Source of the DNA: a virus
Reading direction: 5' to 3' (one strand)
IMG/VR virus record: IMGVR_UViG_3300028384_000677
Span: 1 to 31,200 of that record
DNA length: 31,200 bases
The notes below the pieces were generated by a model, which was not told where the DNA came from, made no database searches, and saw nothing but the letters and a program-made list of their open reading frames with translations. Position numbers and translations under genes: made by a program. Positions 2 to 31,200 of this stretch are shown in pieces. Each line of letters opens with the position of its first letter. Within the stretch, counting starts at the first letter, position 1.

Positions 2-760
2 CTTGAACAGAATGAAAAACGAAGATTAGATTTTAATGCTGATCTTAAGCAAATTAATTTTTTAGATCGAAGAGTTTATAAAAGATCGGAAGGAGTATAT
101 TATCCATCTGTAACTACCATACTCCAGTATATGCCCAAGAATAAGTTTTTTGAGTCTTGGCTTAAAGACGTTGGGCATAATGCCGATCTTATAATGAGAA
201 GAGCAGGTAAAGAAGGTACTCAAGTTCATGAAGCAGCTGAAGCCTTAGTAAAAGGAGAAGAGGTATCTTGGATGGACGATTACGGAAATGCAAGATACTC
301 CCAGATTGTATGGGAAATGATTCTTAAGTTTCATGAGTTCTGGATAACCTATAAACCGGAGCTTATCTCCACTGAAGAGTTTGTATGGTCAGATAAACAC
401 AAGTACGCAGGTACTGCCGACTTAGTTGTAAAAATGAATGATGAAGTTTGGTTGTTAGATATTAAAACTTCTAACTCTATTCACAAATCATACGATCTTC
501 AGTTAGCTTCTTATGCAAAAGCATTAGGCGAATCTAAAGGTATTAATATCGAAAGAACAGGAATTATTTGGTTGAAAGCTCAATCAAGAGGTCCTTCTAA
601 ACAAAAAAATGTTATTCAAGGTAAAGGTTGGAAACTGTTACAAATAGATGAGATAGATAAGAATTTTGAACTTTTCAAAATGATATACAAGCTCTACTCT
701 TTAGAGAACCCGGTGACGGAACCTATTTATAATAGTTACCCAACTACACTAAAAATATGA
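2..760 (+). CDS. RecB/PD-(D/E)XK-type nuclease, 5' partial
   Basis: The reading frame is open from base 2, so the true start lies upstream of the window. The ATG at 131 is internal, because the sequence YYPSVTTILQY, typical of the N-terminus of phage RecB-like nucleases, is encoded just before it. Numbering from M at 131, the visible core is STEEFVWS, then GTADLVV (metal-binding Asp), LLDIKTS (D-x-K catalytic pair) and DLQLASYAKAL (the QxxxY helix motif). These are the ordered motifs of the RecB/Cas4-like PD-(D/E)XK superfamily. Such phage proteins act as DNA exonucleases or endonucleases in recombination or DNA turnover; the exact substrate cannot be read from the sequence. The stop TGA overlaps the next ATG (ATGA), suggesting translational coupling. 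Confidence 0.8.
   Translation, partial: LEQNEKRRLDFNADLKQINFLDRRVYKRSEGVYYPSVTTILQYMPKNKFFESWLKDVGHNADLIMRRAGKEGTQVHEAAEALVKGEEVSWMDDYGNARYSQIVWEMILKFHEFWITYKPELISTEEFVWSDKHKYAGTADLVVKMNDEVWLLDIKTSNSIHKSYDLQLASYAKALGESKGINIERTGIIWLKAQSRGPSKQKNVIQGKGWKLLQIDEIDKNFELFKMIYKLYSLENPVTEPIYNSYPTTLKI
724..731 (+). promoter_or_regulatory. TATTTATA motif, candidate promoter for the lipoprotein gene
   Basis: CTATTTATAATA lies inside the 3' end of the nuclease gene, 25 bases before the ATG at 757. It matches the motif found in the intergenic gaps further along and has similar spacing to the next start, so it may let the lipoprotein be expressed separately. The match is seen directly; promoter function is inferred. 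Confidence 0.4.
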
Positions 761-1419
761 GATATATAATACTTATACTTTTTTGTTTACTTTTAACTAG
801 CTGTGGTGTTTACCAGGTAAGTACTACACCAAAAGTAAAAATTACTAAAATATTAACTTTAACTTCAACAGGAGATACTATAGCCGTTCCAATCAAAGAG
901 TTTCAAAAATATAACTATAATAACGTCTTTGATAATTATAGATACAACTTTAATTACGGTTTTGGATGGTATAATTACCACTATCCATTTAATTATAGAC
1001 CTAATAGCTGGTACTTTAGAGATTGGTATTATAACCCACCTATTTATAACTATAGTATAGAATTACCCCAGGCTAATAAACCTAGAGTTTACGTAAACGG
1101 AAGAAGAGGAAGTAATAATTCTGGAGGCAGTAGCAGAGGTAACCGTATTATATTAAAACCTAATTCGAATAATAATAGTAATGATCAAATTAGCAGATTT
1201 AATTTTAGAAGCATCAACCCGCCCGAAAGTAATAGTAATGGCAGGAGGAGCTGGAGCGGGGAAAACATACCTGTTAAACCAGTTAAACCTATCATCACTC
1301 CCCCAAGTCAACCCCGACAAATACGTAGAGGATCCACAGCACCCCGCATACAACAACCTATCACAAGGAGCTCGACTAGCGGACAAAGAAGCGGAAGAGT
1401 TATCAAACAGCAAGACTAG
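757..1419 (+). CDS. putative phage-encoded lipoprotein, Tyr/Asn-rich
   Basis: The 220-aa product starts MRYIILILFCLLLTSC: a short basic start, a hydrophobic stretch and a lipobox (LTSC, Cys16), so export and lipid anchoring are likely. The mature part is very rich in Tyr, Asn, Phe and Trp at about residues 48-105, followed by a Ser/Asn/Arg/Pro-rich low-complexity tail. Short lipoproteins of this composition are familiar in Flavobacteria; I know of no defined function. A role at the host surface, such as superinfection exclusion, is only a guess. The last 79 codons (from 1181) are read in a different frame from the kinase gene, so this part of the DNA is dual-coding. The start overlaps the upstream stop as ATGA. 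Confidence 0.65.
   Translation: MRYIILILFCLLLTSCGVYQVSTTPKVKITKILTLTSTGDTIAVPIKEFQKYNYNNVFDNYRYNFNYGFGWYNYHYPFNYRPNSWYFRDWYYNPPIYNYSIELPQANKPRVYVNGRRGSNNSGGSSRGNRIILKPNSNNNSNDQISRFNFRSINPPESNSNGRRSWSGENIPVKPVKPIITPPSQPRQIRRGSTAPRIQQPITRSSTSGQRSGRVIKQQD
1041..1048 (+). promoter_or_regulatory. second TATTTATA copy inside the lipoprotein gene
   Basis: An exact TATTTATA occurs in the lipoprotein coding sequence, 132 bases before the kinase start at 1181. The surrounding codons (Pro-Ile-Tyr-Asn-Tyr) readily produce such AT-rich DNA, so it may be chance. If active, it would drive the kinase cassette separately from the lipoprotein. Confidence 0.2.
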
Positions 1420-2098
1420 TTTTGTTTGGGATACAACAGCTTCTAATCCTAAGAAAGTTCAAGAACTAATCAATAAAGGGTACGATGTATTCATGGTAAT
1501 GGTATATACCCACCCTATGATTTCTTACATTTCTAACTTTAGTAGAGAAAGAAATATACCTGGAGCAGCAGTCTTTTCAACATGGAGAAATGTTTACCAA
1601 TTAATCGCAGATTATGATAAAATTACAAACGGTAACTTAGCTATATTTGTATCAGACAGAGGCGGTAAATTTAATAAAGAAATAGAGGCATTTAATACTG
1701 CTGCTAAGAATGGACCTTCTGGAATTAAAGATTACAACGAAGCAAATAACATTGGAGGTTCTACTTTTAGAAAACCTATTGAATTATCTGCTGAAGAAGA
1801 AGAAGAGTTTAAAAAGCATATTGGTAGCTTAGACTACGATAAAGAAGGATATGGAGAAGATAGAGCTTTAAAGAAAGCTTTTAAAGATGCATACGATAAA
1901 AATGGAGTAGGTCCCGGATTAGATAAGATGAAAGATGTCTTAAAAAAGTATAGAGACAGAAAAGCTAAACAAGATGAGAGAGAAACAGAAGTATTAGATA
2001 ATATAGCTGATATGTTATTTAATGAAAAGTTTCAAAAACTTTTACAGCATTCAACACCTAAAGAAATAGATTCAAAAGTACAAGCGTTTTTAGCATGA
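1181..2098 (+). CDS. P-loop kinase with capsid-targeting-like N-terminus
   Basis: This 305-aa protein has a clear Walker A motif, GGAGAGKT (residues 22-29), after a hydrophobic beta strand (KVIVMA). An FVWDTTASN segment follows, and DVFMVMVYTH looks like the next strand. The layout resembles polynucleotide-kinase, zeta-toxin and adenylylsulfate-kinase-like P-loop phosphotransferases; the acceptor is unknown. The C-terminal third is highly charged and helical with an acidic run at about residues 201-206. Residues 1-10, MIKLADLILE followed by Ala, resemble the cleaved capsid-targeting peptide of T4 internal proteins. The start has no Shine-Dalgarno and lies 239 bases inside the lipoprotein gene. 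The Walker A motif sits within the overlap, so the start cannot be much later. The stop overlaps the next ATG. Confidence 0.8.
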   Translation: MIKLADLILEASTRPKVIVMAGGAGAGKTYLLNQLNLSSLPQVNPDKYVEDPQHPAYNNLSQGARLADKEAEELSNSKTSFVWDTTASNPKKVQELINKGYDVFMVMVYTHPMISYISNFSRERNIPGAAVFSTWRNVYQLIADYDKITNGNLAIFVSDRGGKFNKEIEAFNTAAKNGPSGIKDYNEANNIGGSTFRKPIELSAEEEEEFKKHIGSLDYDKEGYGEDRALKKAFKDAYDKNGVGPGLDKMKDVLKKYRDRKAKQDERETEVLDNIADMLFNEKFQKLLQHSTPKEIDSKVQAFLA

Positions 2099-4155
2099 TA
2101 GCATTATACCCAGGAGCATTTAAACCACCTCATAGAGGACACTTTAACGTAGTAAAGTCTTTACTCGATGGGTCTTATAATGGTACAATCTACAATAAAG
2201 ACGATTATAAAGAAAAAGCTTCTAGTCTATTTCAAGGACAGTCTCCAAATAAACCTAAAATAGATAAGGTAATTATATTTGTAGGCGGAGGAGAAAGAAA
2301 TGGAATAGATAAACAAGAATCAGAAGCTATATGGAATATCTACAAGAAGTATTTAGGTAATGTTGAAATAGTAGATGGACAAAAAAATCCAATGTTTGCT
2401 GCTAAAGATTATGCAAGAGAATACCCATCAGATCAGTTTGTAGCAGTAACAGGGATAAGAGGTGAAGAAGACTTTGTAGATCTAAGGAGAGTTACAACAT
2501 TTAACAACGTAGATAACGTTCAAGGACTAGCTTTAGCTTCAGCACCAGGTTCAGGAGTAAGAGCCACAGATTTTAGAAACAATATACTATCTGGCAATTT
2601 AGACACGGTAGTAGATTTTTTCCCTAAAGAATTATCTAGAGAAGAAATATTAAATATTTTAAATGATTTGAAAGATAAAATAGTAGCAGAAATATTAGGA
2701 TCAAATATTGAAGGTTATATAGACGAGTATTTCGGTAAAGAAGAAATTATAGAAGAAATTGAACCTCAAAAACCTCAACTAAAGGACTATATTACTTCTC
2801 TTACAGAATATATGTTAGATATTGGTATGAATATTGTGCCTTTACCTGAAGTAAAATTAAGAAAAGATGAAGCTAATGCTGCTAACTTTTTTGGTAAAAC
2901 AGCGTACTATGATCCAAATGCTAAAGAAATAGTTTTATATACTTTAGGAAGACATGATAAAGATATTGTAAGATCATACTCACATGAGATGATCCACCAC
3001 ATGCAAAACCTACAAGGAACTCTACATAACATTCAGACTCAAAATACTAATGAAGATGATAAGCTTTTAGAATTAGAAAAAGAAGCTTACTTACTCGGTA
3101 ATATTACTTTCAGAAACTGGGAGGACAGTTTAAAGAATCCTGAAGGCAACCTAAATGAAGATATTTCTAAATCACAATTAGATGCTATCGAAGCATATGC
3201 TGATAAACTATTTGCTAAGTTAGGAATAGATATTGAATTTACAAAACACTTCTTAGATAGAGCAAATGATGAAAGAAACAAGAAACCAATAACAGTCCCA
3301 GAACTGATCGGTATGTTTAAACGTCTTTATAAGAAACACGGTAAACCTTTATCTAAAATTGATAATGATTTTGATGCAGTAGTAAAAGATTTTAATAATA
3401 ATATTAATATACCTTTTGCTATCGATGTAACTCAAGACGGTATTGATATGTACGCTAAAACAATAATGCGTAAAAAAGATTTTAAAACATCAACACCGGT
3501 ATATACTCTTCAAGAAGGACGTTACGATAGAATTGCAAATCAATTATCTCGAATAGCTTTTGAGTTTTTTAAAGATGTTCACGATAGAGGAGATAAAGAA
3601 GGAGAGTTTGAATTTAGAGTTGGTAATCCAGAATACGACGATGTAGATATTGAATCTACTCAATTTGAATTTGACTTTATGGGTATAGTAAAATACACAG
3701 ATGACACATATAAAGTTGATGGAGGTGCTAATGCAGGATTTGATGATGAAGGCGAAGAAATTCAACCTATGATTAATGTTAAGTTTACGATACCCCGTAA
3801 TCCTGATTGGCAAGAAGTATCAATGGATTTAAAAGATGTTGTAAGGCATGAATTAGAACATTTAACTCAAGATGGAGAGAACTTAAGACCCGGTAAATAC
3901 ATACCAGATGATCAAGCTTTAAGAATGTTTATAGATAAGGGGTTAATGGATAAAGATGCGTACTTTACTCTTCCGAAAGAAATAGATGCGATGATACAAG
4001 GTTTATACTTTAAGTCTAAAAAGATGAAAAAACCATTTTCTGACGTAGTAGACGACTACCTAAAAAAAGTAGTAGATAAGTTGGAAACCCGCAAAAAAAT
4101 TCGTATATTATGGAATAAAAGACTACCTGCATTAGGTATTAAACAAAGGTTATAG
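2095..4155 (+). CDS. fusion of HxGH nucleotidyltransferase and two zincin-like domains
   Basis: The 686-aa protein begins with a cytidylyltransferase/NMNAT-type domain: PGAFKPPHRGHF (His13 and His16 of the HxGH site) and SGVRATDFR (about 153-161), near the usual position of the second nucleotide-binding motif. A zinc-protease-like motif HEMIHH follows at 297-302, with the acidic helix ELEKEAYLLGN downstream. The segment at about 375-470 (FTKHFLDRANDERN to KTIMRKKDFKT) resembles a module I have seen in other marine phage proteins. A second zincin motif HELEH is at 585-589, with PKEIDAM as a possible third-ligand region. Several LxE sites (IVAE/I, LTE/Y, LNE/D, LQE/G) fall near domain borders, so processing by the prohead protease is possible. 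It overlaps the kinase stop by 4 bases. Enzyme substrates are unknown. Confidence 0.75.
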   Translation: MIALYPGAFKPPHRGHFNVVKSLLDGSYNGTIYNKDDYKEKASSLFQGQSPNKPKIDKVIIFVGGGERNGIDKQESEAIWNIYKKYLGNVEIVDGQKNPMFAAKDYAREYPSDQFVAVTGIRGEEDFVDLRRVTTFNNVDNVQGLALASAPGSGVRATDFRNNILSGNLDTVVDFFPKELSREEILNILNDLKDKIVAEILGSNIEGYIDEYFGKEEIIEEIEPQKPQLKDYITSLTEYMLDIGMNIVPLPEVKLRKDEANAANFFGKTAYYDPNAKEIVLYTLGRHDKDIVRSYSHEMIHHMQNLQGTLHNIQTQNTNEDDKLLELEKEAYLLGNITFRNWEDSLKNPEGNLNEDISKSQLDAIEAYADKLFAKLGIDIEFTKHFLDRANDERNKKPITVPELIGMFKRLYKKHGKPLSKIDNDFDAVVKDFNNNINIPFAIDVTQDGIDMYAKTIMRKKDFKTSTPVYTLQEGRYDRIANQLSRIAFEFFKDVHDRGDKEGEFEFRVGNPEYDDVDIESTQFEFDFMGIVKYTDDTYKVDGGANAGFDDEGEEIQPMINVKFTIPRNPDWQEVSMDLKDVVRHELEHLTQDGENLRPGKYIPDDQALRMFIDKGLMDKDAYFTLPKEIDAMIQGLYFKSKKMKKPFSDVVDDYLKKVVDKLETRKKIRILWNKRLPALGIKQRL

Positions 4156-7278: not shown

Positions 7279-10200
7279 ATGACGTACGATGAAATCAAAA
7301 ATCGTCTAAATCAAGTTGAAACCGCTTTGCAAAGCATTCAATCATATGATTCAACTAAGTTAGACCCTTCTTATGCCTCAACTTCTGTTGAGCAACTTAC
7401 CACCATCAAAGAATCATTAAAACAACAATTAGCAGAAGCAGAAGAAACTATGTTTGTTTCTACCAAAGGCGGTGATACAAAAGCCGTAAAGATGGATAGA
7501 AAAACTGCTATGGACCTTAAAAAAGATCCTGCTATTACTGGAATCGATTCAGCAAAAGGTGCAAAAATTAAAGAACAAGAAGGCATCAGCTTTTCATTAG
7601 AAGAAACTAAAGCTATTGCTAAATCAGTCGGAAAAGGGCTACTAAAAGCACTTAAACAGGCTGGAGATGAAGTAGCTAGAATTAAGGCACATCGTATTGA
7701 AGAAAATAGTTTTGATATTCATGTAACCTATAAAGGAGAGTCTGGAGAAGATGAATTTTCTTTCTACATTGATGAAGATGCGTTGCACTTAGTAGATTTT
7801 TCTTTCGATAAAGAGTTAGTTAATGTAGGTGTTAAACCTTCAGGAGAAGCTATCGTTCACGTTGATCACCTAGCAAACGAGTTATTAAAGCACTTCAAAT
7901 CTTTAAATGAGCAAGTAAACGAAGTAAACTACGATTATTATACTACCCCAAAACATTTTGATATTTGTCCTGGAGCAGAAGCTTTAAGAGATGAAGTAAT
8001 TGAAGGAGGTAAATCACCAGAAGAATTAGGTGAGTGGACTTTCAAACACGACGAATTATTTAAGTTAGAAAAAGCAGTCTTAAAAGCTAAAAAAGCCGAT
8101 GAAAGACATGTTAAAGTAGCTAATAAGTTAAGAGATGAAATTATTCATTTATCTAGAGAGTTAGGTATAGAAGCCGGTAAAATAAATTACTTAAAAGGAC
8201 ACGTTAGGAAAATTGAAGATATCGCCGCAGGTAAAGAGGTAGATGAAAACTACGCAATCATGATGGCTGCTCAAAGAGCAATGGCTGCTAAAGCTAAAAA
8301 AGATAAAGAGAAAAAAGATAAAAACGAATACAACTCAGGTATATATTACGACGACGAAAAGACTAAACCAAGACCTAGAGTAAAAGTAAAGAAAGAAGGA
8401 GAAGGAGATGATCACCACTACTTAAAGGTATCTAGAAGAGATTATAAAAAGACAATGTCTATTCTAGATAATAATGTAGATCCAACTTACGTAAAAACAG
8501 AAGTAGTAGACGACGACGGAGCAGGAAATGTAATTATCTACTTTATATTTAGACATGAGTATGGATTCGATCCTATGTACGACGATCCAGAAGGATTAGA
8601 AAACCCAGAACTATATCAAGAACCAGATGAAGATCCACACGCATTTATGTATGATGTAGTAATGGATTTAAGAGCTCACGGTATAGATGTTCAAGATCAT
8701 AGCGCTGAATTAGATGAAGCTATGGACATTAATGACCCAGTCTTAATGAAAATGAGAGCTGCTAAAGCTTACAAACCAGGTCCAAAACCATCCCCTAAAC
8801 GTCATCCAAAACCTAAAAATGCTAGTGATTTACGTAAATTAGATGCTTTAGAGAAACGTAGAGCTCAAATTATGCGTGATATGGAGCAAGAAGCTGAACC
8901 AGAAGGAGGTCCAATCGCTGACAGATATGGTGACATGCTTAATAAAATTGATGCCGAAATTGCTAAATTAGAAGGTAGAAAAGAAATGGACTATGATACA
9001 GCAGTCGGTCTTAGAGAAAATCAACCAACAGTATTCGATGATGAGAGTTTTGATGCTTTACGTGATATCATTTTAAAATATGTTGAAGATCCAGACGATG
9101 CTGAAAAAGCAGTACAGCAGGTAGATGATCACGGATTAGATTCATTAGCTCCAGAGTTAATCGCTAACCTAGAAAGAGATCCAGAATTCGAAGCTTGGTA
9201 TCATAAACTTCACTACGGTTCTGATGCGGATACAGATTATATGCAGAGAAGAAGAGCTGAAAAAGACTACATGGAAGAAGATACTGATGTAGGACATCAA
9301 GATGATGAGCCTGGAATGTTAAAATCAACTTCTTACGAAATAGCAACTTATGCTGCTAAATTATATAAGAAACTAGCTAAGTATGACCAAGTAGACGGAG
9401 AAGTAGATTTTCCTAACTGGTGGCAATCAAAATTAATCTTAGCTAAAGATTATGTATCAAAAGCATATCATTATTTAGATTCAGAAGAAAAACAACCTAT
9501 CATTGATAAGTTAGCTTTAGAGCATGCAATAAATGAATCAACTGATTTGTTTAGAGACGATAAATTTGCTTTTACTAGATTCTCTATGGGTAAAGAAGGT
9601 CCTGGATTACAGATAACTGATCTTAAAAAGCTAGGCGAGTATATACACGTTTCAGGTAAAGATCTAGACCAGTTTGTTAAAGGACTTATGAAAGCTGTTA
9701 GGGTATTTGACGATATGAAAAGACAATTACCGGTAGATGAAAGTGCTGCTAAGATTCAAAAAGCACACGGTCAAGTTGTTGCTAAAATGAAAGAATTAGC
9801 TAAGCAATATAAAGCCGGTGATAAATCAGTAGTAGCTCAATTAAAAGATTTAACTGCGAAAAAGAAACAATTAGAAAAGCATTTAGATGCTGCAGTAGCC
9901 GGAATCGGTAAGAACCAAGGATTAACAGAACTATCAGGAGATCAAAGAAATGATTTAGTTGAACTTCAAAACATCTTAGACGATGTTGCCCAAAAAGGAG
10001 AGGAAGCTAGAGAAATTATTAGACAATCATTTCCAAGAATGTTATCTAAAGCAGATGCCTACGGAGCATTCGACTTTGGTTCTAGTGCTAATAGATACGA
10101 CACTACATTAGAATCTATCATCGAAGAGATCGAGGAATATTACGATGAAGAGGAGGATCTAGACGAAGGTAAAGAAAAAGAAGGTCAAATGGCTGCTTCT

Positions 10201-11010
10201 AAAGGAAAGAAGTATAGCGATAATCCTTATAAAAAAGGCACCAAAGATCATTTAGCATGGTCTAAAGGACATAACTCATCTAGAGCTAGAAAATTAAGCT
10301 TAAAAGAATGGGGATCCTCAGATCAACATGCAATGAATCAATCAATGCATAGAGATTTAGGAGAACCTAAAGAATTTCCAGGACTCTCTAAATTAATGGA
10401 TGCTGCTGAAGATGCGGTAGATTTCTACTGGGATGATTGGGAAGAATATAAGACTGATAGAGAGGGACTTGTAATGCATGCAGCTCAAATGTACGCTAGA
10501 AAGATGTTCCCTGACTTTATGAAAATGGCTGCCAGAATGGTAGAACCAGCTGATGAAGGAAAGTATAAATCTGACGCTCAAAGAAAAGCAATCTATGCTG
10601 CAAAAGCAGAAAAGAATGAATCTTTTAAAGTAGGAGATAAAGTAACATATCTAGGACACCCAGGCGAAATTACTAAAGTAAATAAGGAAATGACTGGTGC
10701 TATTACCTATAATGTAGCTTATAACAAAGGTAATGGTAGAACTAAAGTAACAAACATCTATAATAAAGGTGGAGAAATAAAAGCTGTAAAGGAAGCTGAA
10801 TTATCTAAAGGCGAAAAAAAGAAGTTAAAAGATATGAGCAAGTCTTTAAAGAAATCAACTAAAGGACATGCAGCTCAAGCTAAATACTTAGATAAGTTAG
10901 TAAAAGAACAAAAAGCAACATGCTGCGGAAGATGTGGTAGAGTTCATGTAAAAGGAACTAAATGTAAAAGTCCCTACTTAAAAGGAAAAGATCACTGTAG
11001 ATATAATTAA
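7279..11010 (+). CDS. 1243-aa mosaic protein of small phage modules, putative virion protein
   Basis: This is the longest gene in the window. It is highly charged and appears to be a string of modules. After a coiled-coil N-terminus there are long Lys/Glu helical regions. NPYKKGTKDHLAWSKGHNSS (from residue 982) resembles a ribosome-modulation-factor-like motif. KYKSDAQRKAIYAAKAEKN follows, then an SH3/KOW-like segment VGDKVTYLGHPGEITKV (about 1117-1133) and SKGEKKKLKDMSKSLKK. The end is a Cys-rich knuckle (Cys1215, Cys1216, Cys1219, Cys1229, Cys1240) that may bind zinc. Segments are separated by acidic stretches with candidate sites such as LDE/A, INE/S, LTE/L and LDE/G. Its place ahead of the head genes suggests an internal head protein or a polyprotein cut by the gp21-like protease; that is inference. 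Confidence 0.6.
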   Translation: MTYDEIKNRLNQVETALQSIQSYDSTKLDPSYASTSVEQLTTIKESLKQQLAEAEETMFVSTKGGDTKAVKMDRKTAMDLKKDPAITGIDSAKGAKIKEQEGISFSLEETKAIAKSVGKGLLKALKQAGDEVARIKAHRIEENSFDIHVTYKGESGEDEFSFYIDEDALHLVDFSFDKELVNVGVKPSGEAIVHVDHLANELLKHFKSLNEQVNEVNYDYYTTPKHFDICPGAEALRDEVIEGGKSPEELGEWTFKHDELFKLEKAVLKAKKADERHVKVANKLRDEIIHLSRELGIEAGKINYLKGHVRKIEDIAAGKEVDENYAIMMAAQRAMAAKAKKDKEKKDKNEYNSGIYYDDEKTKPRPRVKVKKEGEGDDHHYLKVSRRDYKKTMSILDNNVDPTYVKTEVVDDDGAGNVIIYFIFRHEYGFDPMYDDPEGLENPELYQEPDEDPHAFMYDVVMDLRAHGIDVQDHSAELDEAMDINDPVLMKMRAAKAYKPGPKPSPKRHPKPKNASDLRKLDALEKRRAQIMRDMEQEAEPEGGPIADRYGDMLNKIDAEIAKLEGRKEMDYDTAVGLRENQPTVFDDESFDALRDIILKYVEDPDDAEKAVQQVDDHGLDSLAPELIANLERDPEFEAWYHKLHYGSDADTDYMQRRRAEKDYMEEDTDVGHQDDEPGMLKSTSYEIATYAAKLYKKLAKYDQVDGEVDFPNWWQSKLILAKDYVSKAYHYLDSEEKQPIIDKLALEHAINESTDLFRDDKFAFTRFSMGKEGPGLQITDLKKLGEYIHVSGKDLDQFVKGLMKAVRVFDDMKRQLPVDESAAKIQKAHGQVVAKMKELAKQYKAGDKSVVAQLKDLTAKKKQLEKHLDAAVAGIGKNQGLTELSGDQRNDLVELQNILDDVAQKGEEAREIIRQSFPRMLSKADAYGAFDFGSSANRYDTTLESIIEEIEEYYDEEEDLDEGKEKEGQMAASKGKKYSDNPYKKGTKDHLAWSKGHNSSRARKLSLKEWGSSDQHAMNQSMHRDLGEPKEFPGLSKLMDAAEDAVDFYWDDWEEYKTDREGLVMHAAQMYARKMFPDFMKMAARMVEPADEGKYKSDAQRKAIYAAKAEKNESFKVGDKVTYLGHPGEITKVNKEMTGAITYNVAYNKGNGRTKVTNIYNKGGEIKAVKEAELSKGEKKKLKDMSKSLKKSTKGHAAQAKYLDKLVKEQKATCCGRCGRVHVKGTKCKSPYLKGKDHCRYN

Positions 11011-20318: not shown

Positions 20319-20897
20319 ATGGCACAATTACTAGTAGAAGTATCAACATTTAGACCTATTATTACCGAATCAAAGACTAAGCCGGGAGTATTCGAGGTTG
20401 AAGGTGTTATGCAAAGAGCTTCAGCTAAGAATCAAAACGGTAGAGTTTATTCTAAAGCTATATTAGAAAGAGAGATGAAAAAATATATGCAAGAATTCGT
20501 TAAGAATGGTAATGCATATGGAGAATTAGATCATCCTGAATCTCCTGTTGTATCTTTGAAAAATGCTTCTCATATTGTAAAGGACCTATGGTGGAATGGA
20601 GATGACTTAATGGGTAAAGTTGAGTTACTAAACACACCAGCAGGTAATATTGTAAAAGAAATAATCAAAGCAGGACATACTATCGGTATTAGTTCTAGAG
20701 GTACCGGATCAGTTCAACAGACTAACGAAGGTAATTTAGAAGTACAACCAGACTTTGAATTAGTATGTTGGGACTTTGTATCTAATCCATCTACTCACGG
20801 TGCATTTATGAATCCTATATCGTTAAATGAAGGTAAAAAGAAAGTTTCTAAGTATATGAATTTAGATTCTATTATTAACGATATATTAAGAGCATAA
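20319..20897 (+). CDS. 21: prohead core protease, gp21-like
   Basis: The 192-aa serine protease of the T4 gp21 type has GELDHPE (catalytic His72), IVKDLWWNGDDLMGKVEL (about 87-104) and GISSRGTGS (catalytic Ser at 125/126). These align with GELNHP, the DMWW region and VSSRGLGS of T4 gp21 as I remember it. It matures the prohead by cutting scaffold, core proteins and the capsid N-terminus after (L/I)xE sites. Its own start, MAQLLVE followed by Val, carries such a site, like T4 gp21 (LLIE), consistent with self-processing. The gene starts 3 bases after the preceding gene and shares one base with the next. Confidence 0.93.
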   Translation: MAQLLVEVSTFRPIITESKTKPGVFEVEGVMQRASAKNQNGRVYSKAILEREMKKYMQEFVKNGNAYGELDHPESPVVSLKNASHIVKDLWWNGDDLMGKVELLNTPAGNIVKEIIKAGHTIGISSRGTGSVQQTNEGNLEVQPDFELVCWDFVSNPSTHGAFMNPISLNEGKKKVSKYMNLDSIINDILRA

Positions 20898-28596: not shown

Positions 28597-29586
28597 ATGG
28601 CAAACTGGAAAAAGATAATAGTTAGTGGATCTGACGCTCATTTAGCTTCGATTACTTCCTCTATACTTACAAACGACAACATTTTAGTAGCTGGCGCAGG
28701 TGGAGCTATCGAAAGCAGCGGGATTACCTACGATGGTTCTACTTTCGGCCTAGGCACCTCAGTAATAACTTCAACAGGAGCAACATCTATCCTTTCAGGT
28801 TCCTTTAGCGGTTCCTTCCAAGGAGATGGTTCAGGATTAACAGGGTTACCTACTAGTCTTAGTATTGTTGGCGATACAGGTACCGATACTGTTGACCTAC
28901 TTAACGATACGTTAACATTTGACGGAGGTACTAGCTTATCAACCACAGTAACTAATAACCAAGTATCTGTAGGTGTTGATGCAGGAGGAATTACAGAGAC
29001 TCAGTTAAATACTTCAGTTGCAGGTACCGGTTTATCAGGAGGTGGTGGTACTGCATTATCAGTTGATTACGGAACAACAGCAGGTACAGCAGCACAAGGT
29101 AATGTAGGATTAACATTTAGCGGTACAGCAAACGAAATTGAATTATCTACTAACACTGTTTCAACAGTCGGTGGCGGAGGTAGTGTTGTAATTGGCTTAC
29201 CAAATAACGTTGCAGTTTCTAATAACTTAACAGTCGGTGGTGATTTAACAGTAAGCGGTACAACAACAACTCTAAATACAGCTAACTTATTAGTAGAAGA
29301 TAGATTTATTCTTCTTAATTCTGGTTCAGCCAATCCAGATGAAGGTGGTATCGTAATTGATGAAGGAGCAGGATCTGGACATGCATTCATTTATGAAGCA
29401 GATGCAGGTGTAACTAGATGGGGTTTCAATGCATCTGTTGATAGTACAGCCACTACAGCTAATACAACAGCTTATGCTGCAGCAGTAGTAGATGAAACTA
29501 ACACAAACCACTCTGATTCAGCTGAATACCAAAAGAACGGAAATATTAAAATAGATTCTTCAGGAGAAATTTGGATTTATTCATAA
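28597..29586 (+). CDS. tail-fibre/appendage protein with WKKIIVSGSDA N-terminus
   Basis: The 329-aa protein is rich in Gly, Ser, Thr and Val, with shaft-like repeats (STGATSILSGSFSGSFQGDG, LTVGGDLTVSGTTTTLNTAN). A C-terminal domain contains LLVEDRFILLNSGSANPDEGG, IVIDEGAGSGHAFIYE and TRWGFN. The latter segment recurs in fibre-like proteins of marine phages. The first residues, MANWKKIIVSGSDAHLASI, are nearly repeated at the start of the gene at 29876, so this is probably a shared attachment module. I expect a structural protein of the tail tip or fibres; its receptor is unknown. Confidence 0.7.
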   Translation: MANWKKIIVSGSDAHLASITSSILTNDNILVAGAGGAIESSGITYDGSTFGLGTSVITSTGATSILSGSFSGSFQGDGSGLTGLPTSLSIVGDTGTDTVDLLNDTLTFDGGTSLSTTVTNNQVSVGVDAGGITETQLNTSVAGTGLSGGGGTALSVDYGTTAGTAAQGNVGLTFSGTANEIELSTNTVSTVGGGGSVVIGLPNNVAVSNNLTVGGDLTVSGTTTTLNTANLLVEDRFILLNSGSANPDEGGIVIDEGAGSGHAFIYEADAGVTRWGFNASVDSTATTANTTAYAAAVVDETNTNHSDSAEYQKNGNIKIDSSGEIWIYS

Positions 29587-29875: not shown

Positions 29876-31200
29876 ATGCCAAACTGGAAAAAACTGATAG
29901 TTAGCGGGTCAGACGCTAACCTTAACTCTCTTGATGTAACCGCTAATATAGAAGTAGGCGGTATTCTTTCCCTTCCATACGGAAGTGCTTCTGCACCTTC
30001 CTTAACATTCACAGGAGATACAGATACTGGTCTATATAGATCAGCAGCTAACAACTTATCAATCACATCAGGTGGCACTCAAAGATTAGTAATAGGTAGT
30101 GACGTAAATATACAAAATGCCACAGATTTAAACATAACCGGTACTAGTAGACGTTTAAGTTTCACTTCCGGTACAGGTACAGTAAGGACAACATCACCTA
30201 ATAGTTTATTCTTTCAAACAAACAATACTACTGCTTTAACTATAAATTCTGCTCAAAGTATACAGTTTGATTCGTATGGTTCAGGTAATAAAACAGGAAC
30301 ATTAGCATATACCTTAGGTGTTGATTCTTCTGGTAATATTATAGAATTTACAGGAGGTACTGGAGGAGGAACAGTATCATCCATCACAGATGGAGCAGAT
30401 ACTAGAGTAGCTTACTTCAACGGAACAGATTCATTAGAAGGTTCAGCAAATTTCACTTGGGATGATTCTCAGCTTACCGTTGTAGGGGATGTAGAAGCAG
30501 ATGAGCTTATAGGTGATTTAAGAGGAGCTGTTCTATTTAAAGCACAAGCAGGAGAAGCTTTATCAAAAGGAGATGTAGTCTATATTTCTGGCATATCAGG
30601 GACTACAACAGTCGTATCAAAAGCAGATGCAGACGATGCAAATAAAATGCCTGCGTTCGGTGTAGCAGCAACAGCTGCTTCTTTAAATAATCCTGTCGAT
30701 ATTTACACATTTGGTACCTTACAAGGTATAGATACTTCTACACCAGGTTGGTCTTTAGGAGATGAATTATACGTTGATACAACAGCAGGAGGATTAACTA
30801 ATTCTGCTCCAACAGGAGAAAGTGCTCTTCTTCAAAAAATAGGTAAAGTTACAAGAGTGCATGCTTCAGCAGGTTCCATTAAAATTATGGGTGCCGGTAG
30901 AACAAATGCAGTACCTAACCTAAATGAAGGTAGGTTATTTGTTGGTAATTCTTCTAATCAAGCAGTAGCAGATGGTACTGTTCATGTTGATATAGCAAAT
31001 AGTAGAGTAGGTATTGGTACGTCAACACCAGGACAAAAACTACATGTAGACGGTAATATCAGAGTTGGAGATTCAGCAGATGCTGTATATTCTAATAGAT
31101 TTTTTGGGCTATCAAACGCTTCTGTTTATTTACAATCTAATAGTGGCTACCCAATAATCTTTAACGCCGGTGCATCTGAAAAAATGCGTATTACTAATGC
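29876..31200 (+). CDS. large tail-fibre-like protein, 3' partial
   Basis: The frame is open from ATG 29876 to the window end (441 complete codons), so the gene continues beyond. The start MPNWKKLIVSGSDANLNSL repeats the N-terminus of the gene at 28597. Next come LTFTGDTDTGLYRSAANNLS and ITSGGTQRLVIGSD, beta-rich segments common in fibre proteins. A globular part (AQAGEALSKGDVVYISGISG, AFGVAATAASLNNPVDIYTFG, about 220-300) and VGIGTSTPGQKLHVDGNIRV (about 380-399) follow; the latter is a well-known repeat of phage fibres and adhesins. It probably forms a receptor-binding fibre or its shaft. The GC-structured leader and a candidate promoter lie upstream. Confidence 0.75.
   Translation, partial: MPNWKKLIVSGSDANLNSLDVTANIEVGGILSLPYGSASAPSLTFTGDTDTGLYRSAANNLSITSGGTQRLVIGSDVNIQNATDLNITGTSRRLSFTSGTGTVRTTSPNSLFFQTNNTTALTINSAQSIQFDSYGSGNKTGTLAYTLGVDSSGNIIEFTGGTGGGTVSSITDGADTRVAYFNGTDSLEGSANFTWDDSQLTVVGDVEADELIGDLRGAVLFKAQAGEALSKGDVVYISGISGTTTVVSKADADDANKMPAFGVAATAASLNNPVDIYTFGTLQGIDTSTPGWSLGDELYVDTTAGGLTNSAPTGESALLQKIGKVTRVHASAGSIKIMGAGRTNAVPNLNEGRLFVGNSSNQAVADGTVHVDIANSRVGIGTSTPGQKLHVDGNIRVGDSADAVYSNRFFGLSNASVYLQSNSGYPIIFNAGASEKMRITN

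Follow-up and report, generated by a model that had tools for sequence, protein, structure and literature searches.

Based on our analysis of a phage DNA stretch of 31,200 nucleotides (hereafter, the window), we propose that 239 of its nucleotides encode parts of two proteins at once, the C-terminal tail of a predicted lipoprotein and the beginning of a P-loop kinase. From comparison with related loci, we put the probability that this is a conserved, selected dual-coding overlap at about 0.92. The features concerned are as follows.

2-760, plus strand: PD-(D/E)XK exonuclease gene, the left neighbour (phrog_298, E = 8.1e-41); the same neighbour is seen among the relatives listed.
757-1419, plus strand: lipoprotein gene, 220 amino acids, with a signal peptide with lipobox (LTSC), a Tyr/Trp/Asn-rich middle and a Ser/Arg/Gln/Pro-rich tail, from the ORF and its homologs.
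757-804, plus strand: signal peptide through lipobox Cys16, predicted from pattern and conservation; Cys16 is invariant in alignment A2.
1181-2098, plus strand: Zeta-toxin-family P-loop kinase gene, 305 amino acids (Pfam PF06414, E = 3.5e-13; PezT profile, E = 8.6e-4).
1181-1419, plus strand: the dual-coding overlap, 239 nucleotides, comprising kinase codons 1-79 and the lipoprotein C-terminus.
1181-1210, plus strand: kinase leader MIKLADLILE, which resembles the T4 capsid-targeting sequence MKTYQEFIAE (PMC9026906).
1186-1188, plus strand: lipoprotein Gln codon CAA; at this site, six relatives with a short lipoprotein carry a TAA stop through a kinase-silent ATT/ATC difference in codon 2.
1244-1267, plus strand: kinase Walker A motif GGAGAGKT, within the overlap, read from the sequence.
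1417-1419, plus strand: lipoprotein stop TAG, just 5' of the kinase strand FVWDTTA.
2095-4155, plus strand: right-neighbour gene with a nucleotidyltransferase-like N-terminus (weak phrog_395 cytidyltransferase match).

The two genes lie on the same strand, with the kinase frame +1 relative to the lipoprotein frame, and the lipoprotein runs 77 codons (about 77 amino acids) beyond the kinase start. Each lipoprotein codon consists of the third base of one kinase codon and the first two bases of the next; a kinase NNT codon before AA, AG or GA would therefore make a lipoprotein stop, which explains the C-ending kinase codons within the overlap. Kinase GC3 is 0.43 in codons 1-79 and 0.195 downstream of the overlap, and G+C is 0.483 at 1201-1380 versus 30% (18/60, counted) at 1441-1500. 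These values reproduce what an earlier note on this DNA had reported, a fall from about 48% to about 30% G+C and kinase codons that are often C-ending in the overlap, unlike later in the gene; the coordinates and length that it gave for the overlap were exact, and the Ser/Pro/Arg-rich tail that it saw continuing into the overlap is found in the tails as a Ser/Arg/Gln/Pro-rich composition. It had also placed a leader and a Walker A motif in the kinase frame. Since relatives share the M(I)KLxxLILE leader and the Walker A motif whether or not they have the overlap, the kinase start at 1181 is correct. No other same-strand overlap between likely genes of the window exceeds about 20 nt, which makes 1181-1419 the sole long one. 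In large dsDNA phages, unrelated genes seldom overlap over a long stretch, and such cases are usually seen in one genome each. The earlier note's remark that the overlap is unusually long agrees with published surveys: viral +1 overlaps have a median of 14 nt and an interquartile range of 8-26 (PMC8903798), compared with 239 nt here, and an earlier survey at 95% nucleotide similarity found shared overlaps of up to 112 nt across genera within a phage family and of up to 185 nt between families (PMC7017920).

Viral contigs were scanned with the kinase, with kinase alignment A1 and with three distant relatives, which gave 159 usable loci, or 88 distinct loci at <97% nucleotide identity; three classifications were corrected by hand. 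The lipoprotein frame is open to kinase +212 to +251 in 72 of the 88 distinct loci (at +212, slightly earlier than elsewhere, in five), with kinase identities down to about 50%, and nearly all of these 72 loci carry lipobox lipoprotein homologs. The lipoprotein ends at or before the kinase start in seven loci (L019-L022, L090, L154 and L155), and no intact lipoprotein is present in nine, which include the outgroup L023 and L082, where the lipoprotein is frameshifted. In the three lipoprotein-less loci read for this (L014, L017 and L018), the exonuclease lies directly 5' of the kinase. In a maximum-likelihood tree built from the non-overlapping part of the kinase, with L023 as root, the loci with a short lipoprotein form a single clade (support 99), sister to all others, and about five losses of the lipoprotein are scattered within the overlap clade (L014, L017, L041, L082 and the L018 clade). 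No relatives of the lipoprotein or the kinase were found in bacterial and archaeal genome contigs, nor any kinase relatives among 50,697 phage records.

For the expectation under chance, the kinase protein was held fixed and codons were drawn from the remaining part of the same gene. About 10 tail-frame stops are expected in this window, and 0 of 20,000 resamplings stayed open, so the open frame is not due to chance. Across eight loci tested, 6.2-11.6 tail stops were expected; for seven of these loci, none of the 20,000 draws left the frame open, and the open fraction was 0.00035 for the shortest of the eight tails. At NNY sites where T would make a stop, the 72 tails have 718 C and 0 T, versus 457 C and 2535 T downstream in the same genes, a zero that follows in part from how the overlap group was defined; neither the cysteine result nor the decay of the frame depends on that definition. 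Where the lipoprotein is lost or broken (L014, L017, L018/L145/L148/L149, L041 and L082), the tail frame carries 4-11 stops in all eight loci, with a recognisable tail relic in L017. Although an average of 18 out of 164 kinase-silent single-base changes would truncate the tail, no locus in the overlap clade retains the lipoprotein with the tail lost. As a side observation, L082, with its frameshifted lipoprotein upstream of the kinase and five tail-frame stops, is possibly a recent loss.

In exported proteins, a free cysteine is unwelcome. We scored T or C at the third base of kinase codons by the lipoprotein residue gained, and where T gives Cys and C gives Arg, the overlap has a T:C count of 0:163, compared with 733:139 downstream and 57:25 at the corresponding place in homologs that lack the overlap; among 19 representatives with <75% kinase identity the counts were 0:43 in the overlap versus 184:36 (p = 8e-28). 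Elsewhere in the overlap, T:C was 456:520 for Ser or Pro, 41:1 for Tyr or His and 48:12 for Trp or Arg, and because T is common for Ser, Tyr and Trp, T itself must be accessible there. Beyond the lipobox, none of 71 lipoproteins has a Cys. Our reading is that this avoidance of cysteine is the best evidence of a real exported tail protein, suggesting that the tail is translated and exported. Measured against a stop-free null with an unchanged kinase protein, the tail has fewer Cys, Phe, Lys, Trp and Tyr residues and more Pro, Gln, Gly, Val and Asn, and tail identity among distant representatives, 0.425, is only slightly higher than the 0.387 of the null (sd 0.008, maximum of 200 = 0.407). The comparison of synonymous change that the earlier note had recommended gave no slowdown (Synplot-type check, 35 independent pairs; ratio 1.02, CI 0.88-1.16, with the GC3 difference confounding the rate), and the ratio outside stop contexts was 0.95; an apparent reduction in a small set was gone with the 35 independent pairs. 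Tail sites evolve fast. As far as the sequences indicate, the constraint is on chemistry, that is, on a tail that is open, Cys-free, low in Phe and Lys and rich in Pro/Gln/Gly/Ser/Arg, and not on single synonymous sites. The lipoprotein stop lies 10-34 nt 5' of the WDTTA tryptophan codon in the 72 loci, and the residues beyond it, if read on, would be 60% hydrophobic or Cys versus 13% in the tail; the tail thus seems to end where the kinase permits no further hydrophilic reading.

If the upstream stop codon had simply been lost at the kinase start, ribosomes would read meaninglessly through to the first chance stop and the tail would be functionless. The fast evolution of tail sites would agree with this, as would the six relatives with TAA at the window's CAA, one kinase-silent change away. 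Such chance tails, however, would hit a stop early, 6-12 being expected in the tails tested, and the frame is instead open in 72 distinct loci, excludes Cys and decays only once the lipoprotein is lost, which leaves this explanation very little room. Relatives whose lipoprotein ends before the kinase start, which the earlier note had named as speaking against dual coding, were found (one clade, seven loci), and as a counterpoint this short clade manages without the overlapping tail; the other part of that objection, a transient stop loss, is not supported, as the overlap has been maintained. We regard as equally improbable an effect on the kinase gene or the DNA (local codon bias, RNA structure or a GC-rich patch prone to recombination) that shifts composition and leaves the open frame as a by-product. 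GC3 is indeed up across the whole overlap, and third-base C is enriched even at sites where a T would change neither protein (T:C 9:16 versus 426:151), but the bias depends on the lipoprotein residue, with T never used for a stop or Cys, and lipoprotein-less kinase relatives are mostly without the GC3 shift. A residue-blind bias, with equal C:T in Cys, Ser and Trp contexts, was tested for and is absent, so a DNA effect fails as a full account. That the C/T bias follows the lipoprotein residue encoded bears out the earlier attribution of the shift to two-frame constraint, and the view that both frames are real gains support from the retention of the overlap (72 of 88 distinct loci), from the decay of the frame once the lipoprotein is lost and from the exclusion of Cys.

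Two further alternatives concern what the overlap is and when it arose. The best-known lipoprotein overlap is lambda Rz/Rz1, whose partners are functionally linked (PMC6139136), and the pair described here would be a variant of it if the lipoprotein were an outer-membrane spanin subunit. In both cases, a phage outer-membrane lipoprotein uses an alternative frame of another gene in an overlapping pair, and single weak PHROG matches to Rz-like spanins were obtained (best 8.6e-4, 1 of 31 members). Rz1, however, is embedded in its functional partner, whereas here only a C-terminal tail overlaps, and the partner is an unrelated P-loop kinase, not a membrane-anchored i-spanin; moreover, the neighbours are the exonuclease and the nucleotidyltransferase-like gene, and low-complexity tails make weak matches likely. 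We consider the spanin explanation unlikely. As to history, six short-clade kinases start ATG ATT AAA, which gives the lipoprotein stop TAA, and the overlap loci never do so, their codon 2 being mostly ATC, ATA or no Ile; judging from these codons, the overlap extension can arise or vanish by a single stop-codon change. Since the overlap and short clades are sisters, parsimony cannot choose between one gain of the overlap and its loss in the short clade. We lean to a gain because the kinase frame is older and because L021, L090 and the kinase-free L171 carry their own, chemically similar tails without an overlap. The opposite history, in which the common ancestor of the family already had the overlap and the short clade lost it through a single silent C to T in kinase codon 2, has a substantial though smaller chance of being right: one mutation would be enough and the clades are sisters, but the non-overlapping tails of L021, L090 and L171 fit an older, upstream-encoded tail, and the short clade holds no open-frame relic. 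Of the kinase-free loci, L171 (3001-3507; also L170) has a lipoprotein homolog beside a convergent ribonucleotide-reductase-like gene, and the non-overlapping tail of the L171 lipoprotein is Ser/Asn/Arg/Pro-rich.

We suggest the following scheme for the conserved, selected overlap. The ancestral frame of the shared DNA is that of the kinase, with its leader and P-loop; the upstream lipoprotein gene reads past the kinase start codon for 77 codons and ends just before FVWDTTA. The full-length lipoprotein would be translated, secreted, lipidated and held in the envelope, with its disordered basic tail in the periplasm, and ribosomes would start the kinase independently at ATG 1181. With less confidence, we suggest that the lipoprotein may alter the host envelope during infection. 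An origin by loss or replacement of the upstream stop would fit a published model in which long overlaps arise by 3' extension of the upstream gene (PMC3887535), and, as in other phage +1 3'-extension overlaps, the frames are on the same strand at +1. Unlike those overlaps, this one is 239 nt long, is kept across a deeply diverged clade and has a tail filtered for chemistry and not for sequence. L001 and L016 share about 97% identity upstream, stay similar through about the first 30 kinase codons and then drop to about 60%; identity between L061 and L083 falls at a similar place (kinase +60 to +90). From these alignments, kinase lineages appear to exchange the lipoprotein body together with the first part of the tail by recombination, the join lying near the P-loop and both frames staying open.

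The lipoprotein itself is assigned from pattern and conservation, namely a signal peptide with lipobox and an invariant Cys. Searches with 31 lipoproteins gave no Pfam match, weak and scattered PHROG matches and no significant match to the Cor-type superinfection exclusion family (best E 0.01, 2 of 31 members). The AlphaFold2 model has a mean pLDDT of 53, which is consistent with disorder, and offers no fold worth searching; the tail is probably disordered. Our best guess for the role of the lipoprotein is envelope modification. Within that range, superinfection exclusion would be a tentative first guess, and a lysis-related role is distinctly less probable.

The kinase scores 49.9 bits against Pfam Zeta_toxin (PF06414; gathering score 22.3), and its match to the PezT profile is weak. 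It shares the P-loop kinase core with Zeta toxin and PezT but differs in its T4-like leader and its setting in a phage exonuclease/nucleotidyltransferase/nucleotidase cluster; no epsilon/PezA-type antitoxin was seen next to it, the neighbours being the exonuclease, the lipoprotein and the nucleotidyltransferase-like ORF. The leader motif, in a search pattern that requires Glu, occurs in 84 of 88 kinases, and Glu10 is invariant in alignment A1. MIKLADLILE/A matches the T4 IPII/IPIII leader MKTYQEFIAE/A (slash, cut) at positions 4, 7, 8 and 10; positions 4 and 7 of the T4 leader are reported to govern targeting, and 8 and 10 processing (PMC9026906). The 10-residue length, the hydrophobic 4, 7 and 8, the Glu 10 before the cut and a head maturation protease in the window are all as in T4, although the cargo here would be a kinase. 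This likeness suggests that the kinase may be packaged in the head. It is therefore conceivable, though as a whole rather doubtful, that a disordered, Cys-free periplasmic tail arose by overprinting on the leader and P-loop of a kinase that is packaged in the head and injected, and that selection on chemistry alone has long kept it; one piece of DNA would then specify a part of a lipoprotein that modifies the envelope and also the beginning of a protein carried into the next host. Similar leaders, resembling the T4 capsid-targeting sequence and head-protease site, are shared in the window at 1181-1210, 11014, 20897 and 22624 (e.g., MIKLADLILEA, MHKLEKLILES, MKLADIIFES and MELNNLLES), in genes that include the kinase, the major head protein and the ORF that immediately follows the head protease.

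The window belongs to a T4-like myovirus, with terminase, portal, head maturation protease (gene at 20319) and major head protein. Among isolates, Immutovirus immuto of Flavobacterium sp. LMO8 is the closest (terminase 77% and exonuclease 71% identical), from which the host is probably a flavobacterium, and the overlap belongs to a widespread group of uncultured T4-like phages that probably infect flavobacteria. Immutovirus immuto has the same gene order around the slot, and its gene in the right-neighbour position is annotated as an NMN adenylyltransferase; in contrast to the window, the slot holds neither lipoprotein nor kinase. Between its exonuclease and NMN adenylyltransferase lies a 302-aa protein (L163:7196-8104, gp089), which we compared with the lipoprotein and kinase as a candidate relative and found to be unrelated. 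The exonuclease-nucleotidyltransferase slot may be a variable cargo slot.

Overlapping genes are already known as a kind, and this pair is a new and unusually well-documented case. Its dozens of lineages form a natural experiment, in which the overlap is kept, is missing or is followed by frame decay after loss of the lipoprotein. Cysteine avoidance provides a simple sequence-only test for a translated, exported overlapping frame, which works where the synonymous-rate test is blind and could be tried on further candidate overlaps. Where a gene caller does not allow long overlaps, such lipoproteins will be shortened or the kinase start misplaced.

Two other regions of the window are of minor note. 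The neighbouring genes at 28597-29586 and 29876-31198 share the start MxNWKK(I/L)IVSGSDA and are probably paralogous structural proteins. At 7279-11010, a 1243-aa ORF with no strong Pfam match ends in a Cys-rich segment.
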